Shown: piece after piece, positions 36,014 to 50,783 of the stretch
Layout of the letters: every line of letters begins with the position of its first letter
Position numbering within the stretch: position 1 is the first letter of the stretch
From: Eubacteriales bacterium
GTDB lineage: Bacteria; Bacillota; Clostridia; Saccharofermentanales; DTU023
Assembly (NCBI GenBank): GCA_030537595.1
Contig: JAUNVR010000008.1
Span: 1-52,671 of the forward strand
DNA length: 52,671 nt
Reading direction: 5' to 3'
Position numbers and translations under genes: made by a program
The notes under the pieces: model-generated
Seen by the model: only the letters and a program-made list of their open reading frames with translations
Databases searched by the model: none
What the model was told of the DNA's origin: nothing

Positions 36014-36097
36014 TTTTCCTCCCGGTCAAAAGCTAATAAAAAATATAAATTTAATCCTTACTGCCCCAATTCAACTTTGCACTGGGTGCTCAGAAGA

Positions 36098-36169
36098 ATC
36101 TCCCTACTATCTTACTACTCTCAATCCAAAAGTGCATAATCCGTTGCAAAAATACTCTACGCTAGATAT
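36098..36169 (+). repeat. 72-bp direct repeat, copy 1
   Basis: Identical base for base to 37759-37830. The second copy is the upstream region and promoter of tRNA-Ser. This copy holds the same TTGCAA -35 element but is cut inside the -10 box (TATTTG instead of TATAAT), so it is a promoter fragment without a tRNA behind it. Confidence 0.97.
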
Positions 36170-36269
36170 TTGTATCAGCAATTAGATAGTTAGCTCCAAG
36201 ATAGACTGCTTGATAAATAGCTAAGTCATCAGAAATATGGTATCTCCGGGGTAGCATGGAAAAGCAATT

Positions 36270-36293
36270 AAAAACCCTCCTAAGTGGGAGGGT
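36270..36293 (-). terminator. Terminator of the sortase-like lipoprotein gene
   Basis: Minus strand ACCCTCC, loop CACTTA, GGAGGGT and then TTTTAATT: a 7-bp GC-rich stem with a short T-run, 35 bases after the stop. Confidence 0.8.
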
Positions 36294-36327
36294 CTGTAAA
36301 AGCTTACGCGATAGTTTTATTTAGATT

Positions 36328-37227
36328 TTACTTACTCTCAGCTTCCTTTTCTGCCTTCAAGATTTCATAATCAGAAGTCGGGATAGCAAGATAAACATTC
36401 ATCATCTCATCGTCTCTACAGAAGTTAATCACTATAGTTTCCTGATCCAGGCCTTTATATAAAAGATTGTTTGACGCATATACCTTTAACAAGATAGGCG
36501 CTTCTTCTTTGAATAGCGCAGTAGAATAGGGATCTGACAAATCATTTAATGCTAAATCAACTACTATGTACTCATACGTCTCGCCATCTTTACCGGTCAC
36601 ATAGACAAAATCTCCAAGTTTCATATGCCAGAATGGCGCAAAGGCATCTTCCCTATTATGCCCCGTAAACCAAGTTAGTTGATTATCTTTGGCATCAAAC
36701 TCTGTGCCAACCTCCCAGATGTCATACTCCTGTCCATCCAATATCTCATACCTTTCCGCTGCGCTCATTTCACTATCAAAGGCAAGCTCTGGCCTCTCAC
36801 TTAAGGGCTGGTAAGATAGGGTGATTCCATTCCAAGTAAGGGTATTTTTAGGATAGAGTTTTCCTAAAGACTTTCTTGCTTCAGTCATCTTCTCTTGGCG
36901 CTTCTTTCTGGCCTCAAGCTCTTTCGCCCAATGATCCTCGACCTCTTTGCCCCTATTCTCATACTTTTCGGCTTGGCTTCTGGCTATCTTATCTGAAAGT
37001 CTTTCTTCAGTCTCCTTTGTTTCCGTTTCCAAAGGCTTTTTTTCCTCCTCTTTTTCAGGGGATTTTAAATCAGAAGGCTCATCCGTATTAGAAAGCTTTT
37101 CGCCTTCTTGGACCTCGGCATGTTCTGTCATAGAAACATTAGCATCTTTACATGCTGTGAGGTTTAGGAATAATCCAATGCTGATTAGGAAAATTATTAG
37201 GCTAGAAAAACTTCTCTTACTCTTCAT
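36328..37227 (-). CDS. Lipoprotein with a sortase-like C-terminal domain
   Basis: A 299-aa exported lipoprotein: signal peptide 1-25 and lipobox LTAC with lipidated Cys26, then a very charged Glu/Lys-rich linker (about 35-120) likely helical, and a folded domain at about 125-290. That domain reads like a sortase barrel: FTGHN (His190), then WHMKLGDFVYVTGKDGETYEYIVVD, and IVINFC (Cys270) on a later strand. The catalytic Arg normally lies several residues after the Cys; here the only near one is R271. It may be an active but variant enzyme or a dead sortase fold. Lipid anchoring instead of a TM anchor is unusual. AAAGGAAAG lies before the ATG. It lies between the two 72-bp repeats. Confidence 0.7.
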   Translation of the reverse strand: MKSKRSFSSLIIFLISIGLFLNLTACKDANVSMTEHAEVQEGEKLSNTDEPSDLKSPEKEEEKKPLETETKETEERLSDKIARSQAEKYENRGKEVEDHWAKELEARKKRQEKMTEARKSLGKLYPKNTLTWNGITLSYQPLSERPELAFDSEMSAAERYEILDGQEYDIWEVGTEFDAKDNQLTWFTGHNREDAFAPFWHMKLGDFVYVTGKDGETYEYIVVDLALNDLSDPYSTALFKEEAPILLKVYASNNLLYKGLDQETIVINFCRDDEMMNVYLAIPTSDYEILKAEKEAESK

Positions 37228-37758
37228 ACTCTCTTTCCTTTCATCTACTTCTGACTTGGCTTTTCTCTTTCTATTCGCTCTTTCTCAGTAAATAAGAAAT
37301 ATAGAATACATTTATGAGATTTAAACTCTGCCAAATCTTATAGAAAGCCTCCTCGAGCTATCCATGTTACAAGCCCTTTACCCTTCAGTTTATTTGCATA
37401 GTCTAGTTAAGATATATGCTCAATCAGATCATCTAAATCTTCTTCAGCTAAGCCCAGAACTATATGCTAATAAGGATCACTAGCTTTAGCGCTTTTCAAA
37501 ACTAAATAAGCAAGCTTTAGATATTATACAATAGTATCCATTTTTAGTCACAAGAGAAAGTCTAAGCTAGCTTCTCTTTTAGGCCTTAACTTTAATCAAG
37601 TAGCTAGTTCACACATAATTTATTAATTTTTAAGGGATTTATTGAATATGAATTGTTCCGAAGCTGCTCCAAGAATTAGAGCAACTAATTAGTTTTAGAA
37701 AATCTTCCTCCTTGAACCAAGAAGAAAGAGTAGCATCATTAATATAAAGCCTTGGTTT
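37228..37758. other. A+T-rich non-coding stretch
   Basis: 531 bases with no open frame that looks coding on either strand, visibly richer in A+T than the flanking core genes. It should contain the promoter of the leftward lipoprotein gene near 37250-37320, but no convincing -35/-10 pair is seen. No tRNA, hairpin series or repeat array is visible. Confidence 0.6.
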
Positions 37759-37830
37759 ATCTCCCTACTATCTTACTACTCTCAATCCAAAAGTGCATAA
37801 TCCGTTGCAAAAATACTCTACGCTAGATAT
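37759..37830 (+). repeat. 72-bp direct repeat, copy 2 (tRNA-Ser upstream region)
   Basis: Exact copy of 36098-36169, 1661 bp apart. It ends within the -10 box of the tRNA-Ser promoter. This is probably the original, functional copy since it adjoins an intact tRNA gene. Confidence 0.97.
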
Positions 37831-37833
37831 AAT
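37805..37833 (+). promoter_or_regulatory. Promoter of tRNA-Ser
   Basis: TTGCAA (37805-37810), 17-nt spacer, TATAAT (37828-37833). Predicted start about 15 bases before the mature tRNA. Confidence 0.8.
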
Positions 37834-37854
37834 GGCGCTTGTTGTAAGCAATCT

Positions 37855-37945
37855 GGAAGCGTACCGAAGTGGCCGTAACGGGGTGCTCTCGAAAAGCATT
37901 TGTCGGGTGACCGACACGTGGGTTCGAATCCCACCGCTTCCGCCA
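37855..37945 (+). tRNA. tRNA-Ser (anticodon CGA)
   Basis: 91 nt with encoded CCA. The acceptor stem is GGAAGCG/CGCTTCC with discriminator G. The anticodon stem-loop ends TGCT-CTCGAAA-AGCA, giving anticodon CGA (reads UCG). A long class II variable arm (TGTCGGGTGACCGACA region) and GGTTCGAATCC T-loop confirm serine type. Its last 20 bases recur at 39466-39485. Confidence 0.96.
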
Positions 37946-37987
37946 AAAAGCTCTGTAATGCCTTATTTACAGGGCTTTTCGCTTTTT
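37946..37987 (+). terminator. Terminator of tRNA-Ser
   Basis: AAAAGCTCTGTAA pairs with TTTACAGGGCTTTT (13-bp stem, one T-G pair), 8-nt loop, then CGCTTTTT. It begins directly after the CCA. Confidence 0.85.
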
Positions 37988-38177
37988 ATACGTAAGAATT
38001 AAGTAGCAAAATTTAAAGAGCTTCTACTTCCATCTTCATAAGTTTAATCAAATCAAGCTACTTAGACGGATATAAATGCGGGCATGTATCCAAAGTAATA
38101 TAAGTTTTTTATGCCCTAACCACTTACTAATAAGGACGATATTGGCAGAATGATTTATAAGATAGGACGCATGCTTG

Positions 38178-38393
38178 ATGGGGATTTATTCTCATGCAGA
38201 AGAGCCCATTCGTGATATGTTAATCATATATGGGGAGTCTGGACTATTGAACTGGAAAGGGGCGTTAGTGGCTTTTAAATTAACAAAAGCAAATGATCTT
38301 AGACGTTTTTTAGCTCGTAGTGCTAATGAGACTTATAGTGGGAAGCTAGAAGCGCAAGAGGAAATAGCATCACGACTTGCAACGCTATCTTGA
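38178..38393 (+). CDS. Small hypothetical protein, possibly a gene fragment
   Basis: A 71-aa frame (ATG at 38178; a TTG codon earlier also opens it). Not recognised. It is Ala/Leu-rich, mixed-charge and soluble, with FKLTKANDLRRFLARSANE in the middle. There is no good Shine-Dalgarno. In an overlapping frame (about 38351-38410) a few more codons end in a separate stop, which hints at a frameshifted or eroded larger gene. Located in the tRNA-Ser element. Confidence 0.3.
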   Translation: MGIYSHAEEPIRDMLIIYGESGLLNWKGALVAFKLTKANDLRRFLARSANETYSGKLEAQEEIASRLATLS

Positions 38394-38611
38394 ACAGCAT
38401 GAGGCTTGATGACACTCAAAAGCTGCTTGAAGCCTTACAAGATTAGGTTTACAGGACAATCAAGGTTTAAGGCAATCTAGGCTGAAGCCAGGTTCTTAAT
38501 AGGACTAAAGCATGTCTAGTTGGGATAGAGAGCATTTTGGGCCACCGCCTAGCAAAACATTACACCGTTAATCAAACTCGATATTACAACACCTTAAAGG
38601 GGGAGAAGAAA

Positions 38612-38911
38612 TTGAAAGGGTTAAGAACTGTTGAGAGTGAACCATTTTTAAAATTCTTTGCTAAAGTTCAATCTTCAGCAGAAGAACTAGGCAAGGTTTT
38701 CTTCTTAGATTTTGGAGACTGCAAGGGTGATAAATTCCTGAATATGGAGATTGACGACTTATGCGGGTGGCTTGTACCTATTTCTGAGTCCGAGGAGTTT
38801 GAAAAGGAGTTCAAAGCTTTTGAGTCTCTGGAGCAATGGGATGACTTCATCACTTGGTGTTTACCACAAAAACAAGATGGCTCGTTGAGCATTAAATTCA
38901 AGCAGTTTTAA
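38612..38911 (+). CDS. Small conserved-looking hypothetical protein
   Basis: Ninety-nine residues from the TTG at 38612, which has GGGGGAG at six bases; a frame-opening TTG 25 codons earlier lacks one. The protein is soluble and acidic, with TVESEPFLKFFAKVQ near the start, FFLDFGDCKGD, an LCGWLVPISES segment and a WDDFITWCLP stretch. The FxxGDC and GWLxP pattern resembles small uncharacterised Firmicutes proteins I remember without a function; an immunity or antitoxin-type role would fit an island but is not shown. Lies in the tRNA-Ser element. Confidence 0.6.
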   Translation: MKGLRTVESEPFLKFFAKVQSSAEELGKVFFLDFGDCKGDKFLNMEIDDLCGWLVPISESEEFEKEFKAFESLEQWDDFITWCLPQKQDGSLSIKFKQF

Positions 38912-39465
38912 AGCGAATCATATAGCAAATGTTTTTTCATAGCTTAAAGGAAAAGTGTGAAAGGCAGAGCGTGCACTCGATAATCCTGCTTCACCCCCTT
39001 AAATATTGAAGCAGTGACGAAGCATTGAAAATTTCAAATACCGGTTAAATTCTGCCCATTTCTCACCTTCAAATCTATCTGAAAAGTTCGTGATAAATCT
39101 TCGGTTTATCTGCATGCTTAGCTAGAAATGAACTGTGAAAATGCCATATTTCAGTCCGCAAAATAGCTGAATATGTATTTATTTTTCGGGGTTTAAAAAA
39201 GACCAGAAATAACACAGCGAAATAAGATGGATCTGTATAGAAGTAGCCTAGCAAGAGAGCTTAAATAATAAAATGCCTGTACTGTATTCTATCTTTGACT
39301 TTTGGCATGGGGTACCCATCTAGTACCTCATAAGTAATACTCTAAATTAATAGCTAGCTAGGAGTAACAAAATTATGTAAAAAGTAAGTAAACAAGTGGA
39401 ATAAACTATTTCCATTTGAACTAAGGCCAGAATATCAAGCTTGTAAAAGGGTAAAATGCTTATAT
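38912..39465. other. A+T-rich non-coding tail of the element
   Basis: 554 bases without a credible gene on either strand. The only structure noticed is a pair of GTACC words in a short near-palindromic stretch at about 39305-39330 (GGGTACCC, then GTACC six bases on), which could be recombinase arm sites or chance. Confidence 0.5.
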
Positions 39466-39485
39466 GAATCCCAGCCCTTCCGCCA
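39466..39485 (+). repeat. Copy of the tRNA-Ser 3' end (candidate attR)
   Basis: GAATCCCAGCCCTTCCGCCA matches the last 20 bases of tRNA-Ser at 18 of 20 positions; the two differences are at the fourth and sixth bases after GAATC, in the T-stem/acceptor junction. The upstream half of the T-loop (GGTTC) is not conserved. Confidence 0.65.
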
Positions 39486-39513
39486 CAGTATCTAGTTATA
39501 GATCTACAACGCC

Positions 39514-39542
39514 AAGAAACCACCGTTTTACGGTGGTTTCTT
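39514..39542. terminator. Bidirectional terminator hairpin
   Basis: 12-bp perfect stem (AAGAAACCACCG / CGGTGGTTTCTT) with a 5-nt loop. It lies 24 bases after the stop of the leftward 666-aa protein gene and probably ends that operon; T-runs are short on both sides. Confidence 0.75.
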
Positions 39543-39565
39543 CAGTTTACTGATAAGAACTAAGT

Positions 39566-41566
39566 CTAATCAAATAGTTGGCGCGGTGAAAAGCCGCTTG
39601 CAACTGTCTTCTCTTCAATCAAAGTCATATCCCAGCTACTTTGTATGGCTTTGGCCAGGGGTAGGTCTGGATAAATCGCGAACTCTTTGTAGAAGTCTTC
39701 AGGTTGCTGACCCTGCTCTTTGATATATGCCACAATTTTACTTAAAAAGTGACGTTGGTTGGGGAGGGCAATTTCTGAAATCATTCGAACCTGAGTCCAG
39801 ACGAACTGCTCTTCAGAAAAGTTCAAGCGCTCTAGATTCTCCCGTTCAAGCTCGCCTAATTCCGAACCGCTCGGGAAGAATGAATCCTCCAGCACTGTAC
39901 AAAGCTCACTTAATCCCTTTTCAACAGTTGAGCGCGGATACGCATACTGTAAGGTAATCCAGCCTTGAAGATAGAGGTAGTGGCTCGCGCGCATGAGAAT
40001 AATTGAAAGCAGACGCTCGATATGTTTGCCTCGCTTTAAGCTGGCCAGGGTTGGGAACAGTAATGCTAAGTCCTCATGGTTTAAGGAAAAAGCAAATCGC
40101 GATAAACGCTCCTGATTATTACAGTGATTCAACTGAGCCAACAGCCAGGTCCGATGCGTTGGCTGTTGTTTCAACTGCATCTCCCGAGGCAGCGGGTGTA
40201 GCCTGCGTGCAAAGTCTAACGCCTCATTAAAGGAGGAGGCTTGACGTGGTAGCCGTGGCACATAGAAAGGCGGTGCAAGTGCTCCTGATTGAAGCTTCTG
40301 TACAGTTTGATCTATGGCTGCTTGGCGTAAGGGGGCTAAAGACTCCTGAAATTCCTGATGCGCTTTTTCTCGCTTCTGCCCTTCCTCAGCTGCAATTATA
40401 TTCTGGCTGCCACTGACCGGCATCGGCTTTGGCCCACGAATTAAATTGGGCTTAGCTATAGGCTCTGCCTCTAGAAGTGGATGTGTTTGAGATTCAGGCT
40501 CAGACTCGAAGGCAGAATCAGTGGCTGAGTCTTTTTTAGTCTCTGATTCCTGAAGCTCTGCTCCAGCTTCTACATCTTTTCTCTCCGTCTCTAGCTCCGG
40601 AGTCTTAATTCTAAGTGGGCGCAGCCCTGGCCTAAGCTCTGCTTCCGGCTCAGGAACCAGCTCCTCCGGCAAGTCAATTTCCTGCTGGTTCAGTAGCTCA
40701 CTACCAATTATCCGGTTTTCACTACTGGTCTTAGCAGTCCCGTCCATCGTGAACTCTGGCATCCGATTACTAAATGTATCCTCAGCTAATAACTCAGGCT
40801 TCATCTCCTCTTCGCTTTCTGCAGCCTTTATCATTGCTTCGAATTCTCTAGCTGAAGCTTCACGCTCGGCCTCTTCGGCTAAGAATTTCGCTTCTAAATC
40901 TTCCGCCTGAGCAGATTTTTTTAGCGCCTCGGTCTCAGCTTTTAAGCGCGAACTTAAACTCTCCAAGCTCTCGTTTAAATGCTGTTCAGCCCGCTTGGCT
41001 CGTGGAGCAAGTCCTAGGCGAAATTTACGAATACCAGCCTGGGTTCTTTCCGCTTCTTCTGCTTGCGCCGCCCTGGCCGAGGGCTCATTATCGACCTCAC
41101 TAGCTTCAGTCTCCTGCGACTCCTTAAACAAGAGCGTACCTTCTTCCGACTGATTCTGACTTGAGCACTTTTCTTCGCCCGCATCTAATCCAGCGAATAC
41201 AGGCTCATCTTCTGCCTCGCCAGGTTCTAAATCAATAGGATTAATGCTAGGTTCTCTTAGTGGGCCGGGGTCGCGCTGCTCTTTTAACTCGTCTCCGCGG
41301 TACAGGGAGTGGACAAAATCTCTGATCTTCTCTTCCTTATCCTCCAGAAAAGCTAAGTCGTCGAGCTCCTCTGACTCCTCAAGACTTCTTGCGAAAAGCT
41401 CTTCCGAGCTCTTTTCCAGCTGCCGCTTCAGTTCTTGCTCCGGTTCTTTTGCCCGTTCCGGCGCACCTGCTTTACGAGCATGAGCGGCATTAATCTGCCG
41501 CCATAACTCGTCTTCGCGGAACTGATCTAAGGGACGTTTAATCTGCTTATCATCGCCTTCTGGCAT
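39566..41566 (-). CDS. Acidic 666-aa protein of unknown function, partner of the ExbB/MotA-like gene
   Basis: No signal peptide or membrane segment. Residues 1 to about 430 are extremely rich in Glu, Ala, Ser and Lys with heptad-like stretches (about 195-255), so a disordered or coiled acidic arm. Residues about 469-666 are a compact helical domain: a tryptophan-containing helix (THRTWLLAQLNHCNN), then HIERLLSIILMRASHYLYLQGWITLQYAYP, then an acidic FFPSGSELGELE loop and a C-terminal helical part. The pattern of that domain resembles the EH-signature domain of Zorya ZorC, but this is a weak by-eye match. Start ATG with ACGAGG, 14 bp after the upstream gene. Base use is like core neighbours. 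Confidence 0.85.
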   Translation of the reverse strand: MPEGDDKQIKRPLDQFREDELWRQINAAHARKAGAPERAKEPEQELKRQLEKSSEELFARSLEESEELDDLAFLEDKEEKIRDFVHSLYRGDELKEQRDPGPLREPSINPIDLEPGEAEDEPVFAGLDAGEEKCSSQNQSEEGTLLFKESQETEASEVDNEPSARAAQAEEAERTQAGIRKFRLGLAPRAKRAEQHLNESLESLSSRLKAETEALKKSAQAEDLEAKFLAEEAEREASAREFEAMIKAAESEEEMKPELLAEDTFSNRMPEFTMDGTAKTSSENRIIGSELLNQQEIDLPEELVPEPEAELRPGLRPLRIKTPELETERKDVEAGAELQESETKKDSATDSAFESEPESQTHPLLEAEPIAKPNLIRGPKPMPVSGSQNIIAAEEGQKREKAHQEFQESLAPLRQAAIDQTVQKLQSGALAPPFYVPRLPRQASSFNEALDFARRLHPLPREMQLKQQPTHRTWLLAQLNHCNNQERLSRFAFSLNHEDLALLFPTLASLKRGKHIERLLSIILMRASHYLYLQGWITLQYAYPRSTVEKGLSELCTVLEDSFFPSGSELGELERENLERLNFSEEQFVWTQVRMISEIALPNQRHFLSKIVAYIKEQGQQPEDFYKEFAIYPDLPLAKAIQSSWDMTLIEEKTVASGFSPRQLFD

Positions 41567-41580
41567 TGCTAAACCTCGTT

Positions 41581-43086
41581 TTATTCTCGATTGGGACGTA
41601 GGGCTACCGGCAAGGCGTCAACGGCATCGCGGATTGCAGAAGCAGTGAAAATTAGTCGCTCTACAACCTCTGCCAGACCACTGTCGAAGCTTTGTAGTGT
41701 CTGATTGACGTATTCACCAGACTCACGTGTGAAGTTTTGGCTCGAATGTGAAAGGCTTTCAGCTACCACGTTCAGCTCATTGCTGACAGCTTCTAAGCTC
41801 GCAACCAGAGCTTGATTCTGGCCTTCCTGATCGCTCCGCACAGTGGCTGCTAATTCGAGTGATTTGCCCGAAGATTCTAGGGCCTGGACTAGGGTGTTGA
41901 AGGCACTATTCATTGAGCTGGACAACTGCTTAATTCGATCGGCCAAGCGTGCCTCTTCACCCGCATAGATGGCGGCCATTTTCTCTGTAGTCCGACTGAT
42001 AATCTCAAGATTTGCAGAAATCTCATTCATCTCGTTCGCCAAATCATTTTTGGCCACGGTCATCAGACGTAAGGATTCAGTTAACTCCTGATTTAAGCCG
42101 ATGTTCTGCTGACGAGAGGTTTCTAAAACTGCCACAGAATCATGGATAAATTCACGCGTATCCGCAATTAGCTCGGAAAGCTGGCACAGCTCAGTGGCAA
42201 TCGGATTCAATTCTGACTTCAATTCAGCTGCTACAGCCTGTGAGAATTCTCCGGCCAAATTCCGCATGCCCTCACGTTGCTCACCAATTAGGCGTTCAGA
42301 TAGCTCGTGAAGGAGTTTTGCTGAGTCCTTAATCGGAGGTGAAATCTCCTGACTCATCACCTGCCGCACACTTTTTTCAATCCCAGCAGAAAACTCTGCA
42401 TCTGCTAAGTATCTGGCAGTTTCATTAAAATCATTAAAGGCTCTTTGCATGCTGCTCTCGTGGCTCAGTAAATCTTCAACTAATAAGGCCACCCCGGCAC
42501 GATCATTGAAGACCGGGAAAGCTCCAGCTAAGCTACTCATCAGGGTTGCCATTGCAGCCTTAGAACGGCTTTCTCCCTGCTTATCTGAAAGCAGGAAAAT
42601 CACGGAAAGTAAAACTGCAACTGCAGTCGGTAACCAGGCAGCCGGAGCTAAACTCTCTGTCTTTCCGGCCAAAAAGAGCACAAAGCTCGAGAGTAAACCA
42701 GCAGCTAAAAAGGCTGGTATAAGCTTCATTCTGCGCTCAACCATCACTGCGAACTCCGGTAAAAGCTCAGCCCTCAGCTCGTGCTCCAAAGGTGGCAACC
42801 AGCGATTTTCATACTTTAAATCAGCCTCACGTAAAAGCCTCGATAAAGCCTGCTCTACCGCCCCGTCTGGATGCTCAGCGATCAACTCTTCGAGCGCCGG
42901 ACGATTATCCATAGTCCGCCCTCTGAAGCCAGCAATTCGCTCGCTTAGCTCAGCCACAATCGCTAAATCTCTGCGTCTTCTGCCATTGTGAATGACGATT
43001 GAGCTTAGCCCTACGATTAATAAGACTAAGGGTACGATTATCAGAAAAATAAAATCTAAGGGTTCTAAACCAAACAAAGGATTCAT
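41581..43086 (-). CDS. ExbB/MotA-like membrane protein with long coiled-coil tail
   Basis: A 501-aa protein with three membrane segments at about 11-32, 121-141 and 149-167, an 85-residue hydrophilic part between the first and second, and a 320-residue tail predicted by eye to be coiled-coil (many ELxxxxS/N heptads, up to about 485). This order (TM1, cytoplasmic loop, TM2-TM3, cytoplasmic tail) is that of ExbB/TolQ and ZorA proton channels. The tail ends in QSFDSGLAEVVERL..IRDAVDALP, a pattern I associate with long-tailed MotA/ExbB-like proteins. Classical Thr/Pro-GT channel motifs in TM2 are not obvious, so family membership is tentative. AGGAGG before the ATG; first gene of the operon. Confidence 0.85.
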   Translation of the reverse strand: MNPLFGLEPLDFIFLIIVPLVLLIVGLSSIVIHNGRRRRDLAIVAELSERIAGFRGRTMDNRPALEELIAEHPDGAVEQALSRLLREADLKYENRWLPPLEHELRAELLPEFAVMVERRMKLIPAFLAAGLLSSFVLFLAGKTESLAPAAWLPTAVAVLLSVIFLLSDKQGESRSKAAMATLMSSLAGAFPVFNDRAGVALLVEDLLSHESSMQRAFNDFNETARYLADAEFSAGIEKSVRQVMSQEISPPIKDSAKLLHELSERLIGEQREGMRNLAGEFSQAVAAELKSELNPIATELCQLSELIADTREFIHDSVAVLETSRQQNIGLNQELTESLRLMTVAKNDLANEMNEISANLEIISRTTEKMAAIYAGEEARLADRIKQLSSSMNSAFNTLVQALESSGKSLELAATVRSDQEGQNQALVASLEAVSNELNVVAESLSHSSQNFTRESGEYVNQTLQSFDSGLAEVVERLIFTASAIRDAVDALPVALRPNRE

Positions 43087-43127
43087 AAAGCCTCCTGCCG
43101 GGGTCTACCGGCTAAATCTCCCTCCCG

Positions 43128-43254: not shown

Positions 43255-44722
<1,468 letters not shown>

Positions 44723-49089: not shown

Positions 49090-50160
49090 CTAATTCTTAC
49101 CGGCGAGTGCATTGTCAATCAGGGCGCTCATTAACGCGGGACCTGGGTACCCAGCCTCTGCCATCAGCTTCGGATACATCGAGATCTCAGTGAAACCAGG
49201 CATAGTGTTGATTTCATTGAGATAAATCTTGCCATCTGCTGTGTAGAAGAAGTCGACCCTGGCCAAGCCATGACAATGCGCACTCCGGAATGCCAATTTA
49301 GCATATTCCAGCATCTCGTTATAAGACTGCGGCGGGAGTGAAGCCGGGATCACTAACTCTGAACCGACATTCGCATACTTCGCGTCATAGTCGTAAAATT
49401 CATGGGCTGAAACAATCTCGCCAGCTGGGGAAACTACCAGTTTACGAGTCTCATCACCGAGCTCGAGAATAGCTAATTCCAGTTCACGACCAACTATTGT
49501 TTCTTCAATCACAACCTTGCTGTCATAGTAAAATGCAGCTTCAATTGCTTCAATTAAAGACTTCTTATTTTTGACCTTACAGACCCCAACCGAAGATCCC
49601 GCATTCGCAGGCTTGACGAAAAGTGGCAAAGTCAAGTTCTTGAGAATATGCTCAACTTGTCTTTCTGGATCCATTTCGTATCTGCGCTTACGTAACCATA
49701 ACCATTTAGCCTGAGGAATCTCGAGCTGGTCAAAGAGCTGTCTTGCAACGGCCTTATCAAGGCAGATTGCTGAGCCTAGAATACCCGCTCCCACATAGGG
49801 TAAATCGAGCATTTCAAAGAGCCCTTGTAAACTGCCATCTTCGCCGTAGGCTCCGTGCACACAAGGGAAGGCTAAATCTAAGGGGTGGAATTTATAACTT
49901 GTAAAGCTCTCCGTGAAAAAGCCTGGATCACGCGGGTCTAGGTTCCAGTAAATCTGCTTAACTGAATCCTCAGTCCAGCGATCTTCCGGAATTGCCTCGG
50001 GTGCTCCAGTATAGTGATAAAACTTTCCGTCACGGCTGATGCCAATCAGGCAAATCTCAATATTTTCCAGCTCAGCTAAACAAGAATGAACGTAGGCTAC
50101 AGACTTCAGTGAAATCTCGTATTCGCTGGAAACTCCACCAAAGAATAATCCTAATCTCAC
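49090..50160 (-). CDS. ddl: D-alanine--D-alanine ligase
   Basis: Makes the D-Ala-D-Ala dipeptide for peptidoglycan. The 356-aa ATP-grasp protein has GGVSSEYEISLKS, HGAYGEDGSLQGLFE, KPANAGSSVGVCKV, the omega-loop tyrosine region EFYDYDAKY and the metal-site EINTMPGFTEISMYP. The omega-loop Tyr indicates D-Ala rather than D-lactate. Start GTG at 50160 overlaps the upstream stop by four bases (GTGA), so it is translationally coupled. Followed by the MecA-like PBP: both genes act in cell wall cross-linking. Confidence 0.97.
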   Translation of the reverse strand: MRLGLFFGGVSSEYEISLKSVAYVHSCLAELENIEICLIGISRDGKFYHYTGAPEAIPEDRWTEDSVKQIYWNLDPRDPGFFTESFTSYKFHPLDLAFPCVHGAYGEDGSLQGLFEMLDLPYVGAGILGSAICLDKAVARQLFDQLEIPQAKWLWLRKRRYEMDPERQVEHILKNLTLPLFVKPANAGSSVGVCKVKNKKSLIEAIEAAFYYDSKVVIEETIVGRELELAILELGDETRKLVVSPAGEIVSAHEFYDYDAKYANVGSELVIPASLPPQSYNEMLEYAKLAFRSAHCHGLARVDFFYTADGKIYLNEINTMPGFTEISMYPKLMAEAGYPGPALMSALIDNALAGKN

Positions 50161-50783
50161 TGTTCAATCTCCTTCTTATTTCGCTGAATAAAGACAAGCA
50201 TCTCGGTCAACTGATCTTCTAAGTCAATTAGTACGTTCTTCGCATAATCGATCACCTGGTGCTCGATATTCTTTGCCCTCTGTCCGGCTGCAGTTAGGAT
50301 TGACCGTGCTTCTTCCTGCGCCTGCTGAGTCACTTCGTGCTCGTCGATCATCCGTGTCATCTGCTGCTCAGCCTCACGCATAATCTGTTCGGCCTCTTTT
50401 CTAGCCTCAGCTATCAGTTGCCTATTCTGCTGTAAAAGCCATCTGGCCTGACGCAGCTCCTCGGGTAAATTTTCTCGGATCATCCGAATCATAAAGAGCA
50501 TTTCTTCTCGATCAAGCAGGACTTGCTCGGAAAAAGGCATTTTCTTCGCCTCTGACACCTGATCTTCCATCCGATTCAGCACCGAAAAGATATTCTTATC
50601 TACACCTTGGCGTTCGGCCTCTGCCTGCGCTTGGAGCTCACGCTGAGGTCGCTGTGGCATCGTTTCCTGAGACTGGGCCTCACTCACGCGCTGCCGGCGC
50701 ACCGGCGCAGTATGTTGAGCCGGCCTTCTCGGCGGATCAATCTGTGGGTAATCGGGTCGGCTTCTTGTATAATCCTGATCCAT
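50157..50783 (-). CDS. Coiled-coil protein of the coaD cluster
   Basis: A 208-aa soluble protein: a Pro/Arg/Gln-rich disordered N-terminus (1-60) followed by a long helical region (about 62-208) of Gln/Glu/Arg heptads (EARKEAEQIMREAEQQMTRMI). Similar proteins, often named 'ATPase' or likened to V-ATPase subunit H/DivIVA, sit beside coaD in many Clostridia (family knowledge). No ATPase motif is visible, so that name is not supported. It begins 2 bp after coaD and overlaps ddl. A scaffold role near the septum is only a guess. Confidence 0.85.
   Translation of the reverse strand: MDQDYTRSRPDYPQIDPPRRPAQHTAPVRRQRVSEAQSQETMPQRPQRELQAQAEAERQGVDKNIFSVLNRMEDQVSEAKKMPFSEQVLLDREEMLFMIRMIRENLPEELRQARWLLQQNRQLIAEARKEAEQIMREAEQQMTRMIDEHEVTQQAQEEARSILTAAGQRAKNIEHQVIDYAKNVLIDLEDQLTEMLVFIQRNKKEIEQ

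Follow-up and report, generated by a model that had tools for sequence, protein, structure and literature searches.

A ZorA-like and ZorC-like protein pair, probably without motor or nuclease, conserved in a clostridial order

Two adjacent minus-strand genes in a 52,671-nucleotide stretch of DNA from a Eubacteriales bacterium (contig JAUNVR010000008.1; this whole stretch is called the window) raise the question of whether they form a phage defence system or belong to the cell envelope. Descriptions of Zorya present it as a rotary motor triggered by phages, and the original prediction, made from the sequence of the window, took the two genes as a unit that was possibly Zorya-like, or alternatively a membrane-mechanical system, stripped-down or unrelated, or else an envelope system of this lineage. 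Our analysis suggests that the pair is probably a two-gene operon encoding ZorA-type and ZorC-type proteins that lacks an ion-driven motor or a nuclease and would serve the envelope as a static scaffold or tether. The relevant features are as follows.

41581..43086, minus strand: gene 1, ZorA-like membrane protein of 501 residues; AGGAGG at 43091-43096
42994..43050, minus strand: predicted transmembrane helix 1 of gene 1, residues 13-31 (hydropathy; AlphaFold2 helix 9-52)
42667..42723, minus strand: predicted transmembrane helix 2 of gene 1, residues 122-140, with AAGLLSSFVLFLAG at the position of the ZorA motif GxGxxGTFxGL (hydropathy, alignment)
42586..42642, minus strand: predicted transmembrane helix 3 of gene 1, residues 149-167, with W-L-P-T at the position of the ZorA motif F-x-[ST]-S (hydropathy, alignment)
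41584..42579, minus strand: cytoplasmic coiled tail of gene 1, residues 170-501
41599-41733, minus strand: conserved tail end of gene 1 (FTRESGEYVNQTLQSFDSGLAEVVERL..IRDAVDALPVAL), common to ZorA tails
39566..41566, minus strand: gene 2, acidic arm and ZorC-N-like domain, 666 residues; GAGG at 41574-41577
40277..41566, minus strand: acidic low-complexity arm of gene 2, residues 1-430 (composition)
39611..40261, minus strand: conserved helical domain of gene 2, residues 436-652, homologous to the N-terminal half of ZorC

In the gene 1 protein, a cytosolic loop of 83 residues accompanies three hydrophobic segments, and the tail, 332 residues long, carries 50 Asp and Glu versus 29 Lys and Arg residues. 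Its AlphaFold2 model, built from seven sequences and without templates, has moderate to good confidence over about residues 10-200 (predicted local distance difference test, pLDDT, mostly 75-88) and poor confidence in the tail, where long helices are predicted for residues 196-495. When this model is compared with the PDB by using Foldseek, the top five matches are all ZorA (8qyh, 8qyk, 8qyd, 8qyy and 8vvn; probability 1.00, E 0.013-0.18), followed by TolQ and ExbB. VIA-align ranks them in the same way, with Z scores of 13-14 to ZorA versus about 11 to ExbB/TolQ. The original prediction had noted the topology of ExbB/TolQ/ZorA channels and proposed comparing a predicted structure with ZorA, ExbB and MotA. 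The model matches, together with the profile scores given next, indicate that the topology reflects real homology extending to the fold of the membrane domain.

Sequence comparisons were made with eight Zorya-type loci of the same phylum (L110-L115, L167 and L168), including one, L112, that PADLOC types as type I Zorya (ZorB 4.5e-88, ZorD E=0). In profile-profile alignment with the genuine ZorA proteins, the whole gene 1 family scores 217 (reversed controls 55-60), and its N-terminal part only scores 110 (reversed 29-32). The family also shares a ZorA-type motif at the tail end, F..es..v..tl..FD..La.v..rL..t..eIrd.vd.LP. Searches of both proteins with Pfam, PADLOC and NCBIfam return just scraps of ZorA in the tail region that lie far under the cut-offs, and these were not relied on. 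Searching PDB sequences with both profiles gives coiled-coil noise, with ZorA 8qyk at E 0.13. Judged by these alignments and the predicted structure, the gene 1 protein is a divergent ZorA homologue.

The gene 2 protein has no transmembrane segment. Its arm contains 103 Asp and Glu residues (81 of them Glu) versus 58 Lys and Arg, and the C-terminal domain that follows is near neutral in charge. This domain is the only conserved part of the protein, and among homologues it is preceded by 63 to 435 residues. Structure prediction makes it all-helical, with pLDDT 80-92 over most of the core. A fold search with the domain yields helical matches of a generic HEAT/ARM-like type, the best at Z 6.9 and none of them specific.

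The relation to ZorC emerges through sister families. The window belongs to family f1 of its order, and three other families are termed f2, f3 and f4. In f3 and f4, the partner protein runs on into a second half, the EH half, and the window protein ends before it. At full length, the f3/f4 partner can be aligned with ZorC along 295 collinear columns with a score of 86 (reversed 14-17), and the f1 domain in turn matches this partner with a score of 176 (reversed 16-17); the genuine ZorC sequences were taken from loci found with the ZorA model. A HMMER model of the f1 domain detects the ZorC of L112 at 9e-10, as well as the EH partners of three further loci discussed below (L126 at 1e-12, L163 at 8e-11 and L164 at 7e-17). 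Family searches with PF15611 and the PADLOC ZorC model produced nothing reliable. The EH signature Glu is present in 8/8 genuine ZorC proteins and in 0/19 relatives, which mostly have Asp instead. These alignments indicate that the gene 2 domain is homologous to the N-terminal half of ZorC, and we regard homology of the pair to ZorA and ZorC as very likely. The weak resemblance to the EH-signature domain of ZorC noted originally was thus correct, in that sister families keep the rest of ZorC, and the window protein lacks the EH half itself.

As a separate observation, the PADLOC ZorC model gives only 27 bits to the ZorC (L112:5619-6794) that lies inside a complete type I locus, and Pfam EH_Signature either misses the divergent EH proteins tested or places them below its cut-off. 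Both models under-detect divergent ZorC.

Homologues of gene 1 are found in 48 of 59 genomes of the order, as a single copy in nearly all of them, and homologues of gene 2 in 44 by single-sequence search, to which profile searches add f4 partners that were missed. These come from a sample of capped size and include metagenome-assembled genomes, which may miss genes. Wherever both genes lie on one contig they are adjacent (45/45 genomes: 32/32 in f1, 6/6 in f3 and 7/7 in f4), so the proposed two-gene unit is real and conserved across the family, and a co-occurrence search of the kind originally suggested supports it. No pair was seen in f2 (0/10 genomes). In an even sample of 391 genomes of the class, a profile of the membrane domain finds the order alone, plus two outliers. 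Gene order around the pair is the same in a congener, G001, to which the two proteins have 56% and 49% identity, compared with 54% for a nearby PBP2-type gene. By these comparisons, the pair is a single-copy, syntenic, vertically inherited core unit, present almost throughout three families of one clostridial order. This core-gene distribution points to a role in the cell envelope instead of phage defence.

In one genome, G051, a ZorA-like gene (L086:7715-9334) occurs without a recognisable partner, and the next open reading frame encodes 176 residues.

The original prediction also remarked that the pair adjoins a tRNA-Ser island. The segment in question (36014-39565) has a G+C content of 0.38 versus 0.465 for the window, separates the pair from the preceding gene in the window only, and is missing in G001, where the pair occupies the same position without it. 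The island is therefore not relevant context, and a defence-island reading was rejected because of this arrangement and the conserved synteny. The segment itself contains tRNA-Ser(cga), an orphan open reading frame (38537-38911) and a lipoprotein-like one (36328-37227) with a sub-threshold match to a sortase domain.

What sets the pair apart from Zorya is the set of parts that it lacks. The motif GxGxxGTFxGL is found in 7/7 genuine ZorA proteins, apart from single substitutions at the outer glycines (the T and F are kept in 7/7), and F-x-[ST]-S is also found in 7/7. In alignments, no member of the pair family keeps the motor motif; within the order neither of its two elements is retained, and the second site is mostly Pro. 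Because the motif is common to the wider superfamily, its absence is most simply a loss. The genome that contains the window, which is 96% complete, has no OmpA domain and no match to a ZorB profile, and the same profile has no match in 57/59 genomes of the order; the two matches share contigs with MotA_ExbB matches and are probably flagellar MotB. The neighbouring genes include no ZorD (SNF2 helicase/nuclease), and inspection of these open reading frames confirms the original statement that no ZorB, nuclease or helicase adjoins the pair. In E. coli, defence by Zorya I and II requires ZorB with its Asp; the same work shows that neither ZorB D24 nor the ZorA tail can be spared, and ZorAB reportedly recruits ZorCD (PMC11890865). 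Measured against this, the pair cannot be a Zorya motor.

With no stator, motor residues or effector, a static scaffold or tether is the most likely function. ZorA and ExbB are pentamers, and by analogy the gene 1 protein might form a membrane oligomer whose bundled tails would reach into the cytoplasm. The gene 2 protein could dock on these tails through its ZorC-N-like helical domain, and its acidic, presumably disordered arm might reach out to other partners. At the envelope, the assembly would then be a scaffold or tether that perhaps helps to assemble the envelope or supports a surface machine, and rotary phage sensing would not be its role. Of the possibilities raised at the outset, the best match is the one that invoked an unrelated system, membrane-mechanical or of the envelope, in this lineage. 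The description as stripped-down holds for the anatomy, but not if it implies a decaying remnant, because the pair is an established core unit.

Three observations weigh against this proposal. Ser or Thr occupies the motor Thr site in 13/21 members in the order, including Ser in the window, and may retain some polar function. When the f1 domain is compared directly with ZorC, the score is a modest 38 (reversed 16-18; probability 52%), and homology of this domain to ZorC therefore leans on the bridge through sister families. Finally, the term scaffold is argued from what is missing, and the scaffold role specifically is tentative, a little short of probable.

The strongest competing explanation, although unlikely, is that the pair organises or regulates a pilus-type surface machine, whether type IV or Tad-type. 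An EH profile search outside the order recovered genuine Zorya loci and six other loci from four families (L126, L163, L164, L165, L127 and L166), and each of the six lies within or next to a set of type IV pilus genes. L126, L163 and L164 share the order ZorA-like, ZorB, EH, PilB, PilT, PilC, PilM, with the triads (L126:8400-12091, L163:2744-6263 and L164:1491-5040) directly upstream of pilB-pilT-pilC-pilM. In L165, L127 and L166, the pair adjoins PilD/PilT/PilB or pilins. A conserved S-D motif that contains the ion-carrying Asp is found in 8/8 genuine ZorB proteins and is absent from the ZorB of L126, L163 and L164. Some f3 genomes also have a second, much longer ZorA-like protein (850-863 residues where complete) with its own EH partner; these second copies lie beside prepilin genes in L125 (5903-9774) and PilM-type genes in L169 (8273-12257), the two with readable flanks, and a further one occurs in L128. 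In the openly licensed literature searched, no listed paper pointed to a link of Zorya to type IV pili, and the pilus-linked units described here were not encountered, so that they look unreported.

Trees of the two partners agree in their main groups. In both, Zorya groups together (99/97 and 93/85), and the pair of the order forms one group with the second copy L125 (100/99 and 93/91). In the ZorA tree, L165 and L127 adjoin the pair of the order with modest support (86/75). Several branches are long, and the root, and hence the direction of change, is unsettled.

The pilus explanation also draws on a gene for a T2SSE-family ATPase in 58/59 genomes of the order. Against it, no pilus gene is found in the neighbourhood of the pair in the window, and the genome that contains the window lacks PilM and any T2SSE match of PilB grade. 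PilM is likewise unmatched in 26/37 f1 genomes and 8/8 f4 genomes, though the pair is nearly universal there, and type IV pilus genes occur in 6/6 f2 genomes, yet no pair. Dependence of the pair on type IV pili was rejected on this co-occurrence, and the pair is probably not an obligate type IV pilus part. A link to the Tad-type ATPase that is present almost everywhere is conceivable but unsupported.

Less likely again is that the pair remains an energised ion channel of the ExbB/TolQ kind, has an unrelated plug protein encoded elsewhere and does mechanical work on the envelope. The three-transmembrane topology, the structural matches to ExbB/TolQ and the Ser or Thr at the first motor site would all suit such a channel. 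However, neither the second Ser site nor the flanking glycines survive, PF01618 (MotA/ExbB/TolQ) has no match in either protein or in the genome that contains the window, and an OmpA or ZorB-type partner is missing from that genome.

A minimal or degenerate Zorya that still restricts phages would explain the homology to ZorA and ZorC, but it is very improbable: the ZorB with its Asp that the E. coli systems require is absent, no ZorD is nearby, the EH half is missing, and the distribution is that of a core gene with conserved synteny. The idea of a Zorya-like defence system, as first proposed, is given up on the same grounds, together with the loss of the motor motif. That the resemblance to ZorA and ZorC reflects mere coiled-coil and helix composition, as the appreciable scores of reversed tails and the tail-bound library matches might suggest, is scarcely credible and largely refuted: both the N-terminal domain and the partner, which is not coiled, outscore their reversed and column-shuffled controls by far, the five best structural matches are ZorA, and the neighbouring genes correspond to two partners of a single system, arranged as they are there.

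Expression signals can be read directly from the sequence. Gene 1 is upstream of gene 2 with 14 base pairs between them in the list of open reading frames, and AGGAGG and GAGG, the ribosome-binding sites, lie 4 and 7 nucleotides ahead of the respective ATG codons. Directly past gene 2 is one further feature:

39514..39542, no strand assigned: perfect 12-base-pair inverted repeat AAGAAACCACCG-TTTTA-CGGTGGTTTCTT (read directly)

Judged by its sequence, this repeat is a possible terminator with a weak T run; a consensus terminator scan did not call it. The neighbours of the pair in the window are a beta-eliminating lyase, a citrate lyase ligase and housekeeping genes. The lyase (43343-44722; tryptophanase or tyrosine phenol-lyase type) is divergent from the pair and has 94% identity to its counterpart in G001 versus 43-85% for most neighbours, possibly through recent transfer or strong constraint. 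Farther away, at 50160-50783, a 208-residue helical protein with weak matches to DivIVA and V-ATPase G is encoded between Ddl-like and CoaD-like genes.

More broadly, the ZorA-ZorC core might also occur as a non-defence module of the envelope or pilus, in pilus operons of clostridia and as the pilus-free, motor-less and nuclease-less core pair of one order; we offer this broader view tentatively, as somewhat short of probable. If it is true, a single ancient membrane-tail machine would have been put to use both in Zorya defence and as a housekeeping module. The motor-less core pair and the Asp-less triads would mean that the tail-plus-ZorC part has a job that requires neither ion flow nor a nuclease, which opens the question of what the ZorA tail and ZorC do in the absence of a motor. 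There is a practical consequence for annotation, because defence annotation tools could mistake the Asp-less ZorA-ZorB-EH triads for Zorya. Finding ZorA-like or ZorB-like genes is not in itself sufficient ground for an annotation as phage defence.

Among known systems, the ion-driven motors ExbB/TolQ/MotA share the topology and fold of the membrane domain with the gene 1 protein, but the window pair has eroded motor residues and no ExbD/TolR/MotB-like partner that was found. The ZorA-(ZorB)-EH units of clostridial pilus clusters resemble the window pair in combining a motor-dead ZorA with an EH partner; they differ in that they belong to pilus operons and that three of them retain a ZorB lacking the Asp, neither of which applies to the window pair. 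Type I Zorya likewise has a three-transmembrane ZorA-type protein with a long tail, followed by a ZorC-type partner in the same operon. It additionally has ZorB, ZorD, the motor motif and the EH domain, all of which the window pair is without (for ZorD, as judged by adjacency), and its EH signature Glu is not kept in the sister families of the pair. Whereas the distribution of type I Zorya is patchy, the window pair is a single-copy core unit.

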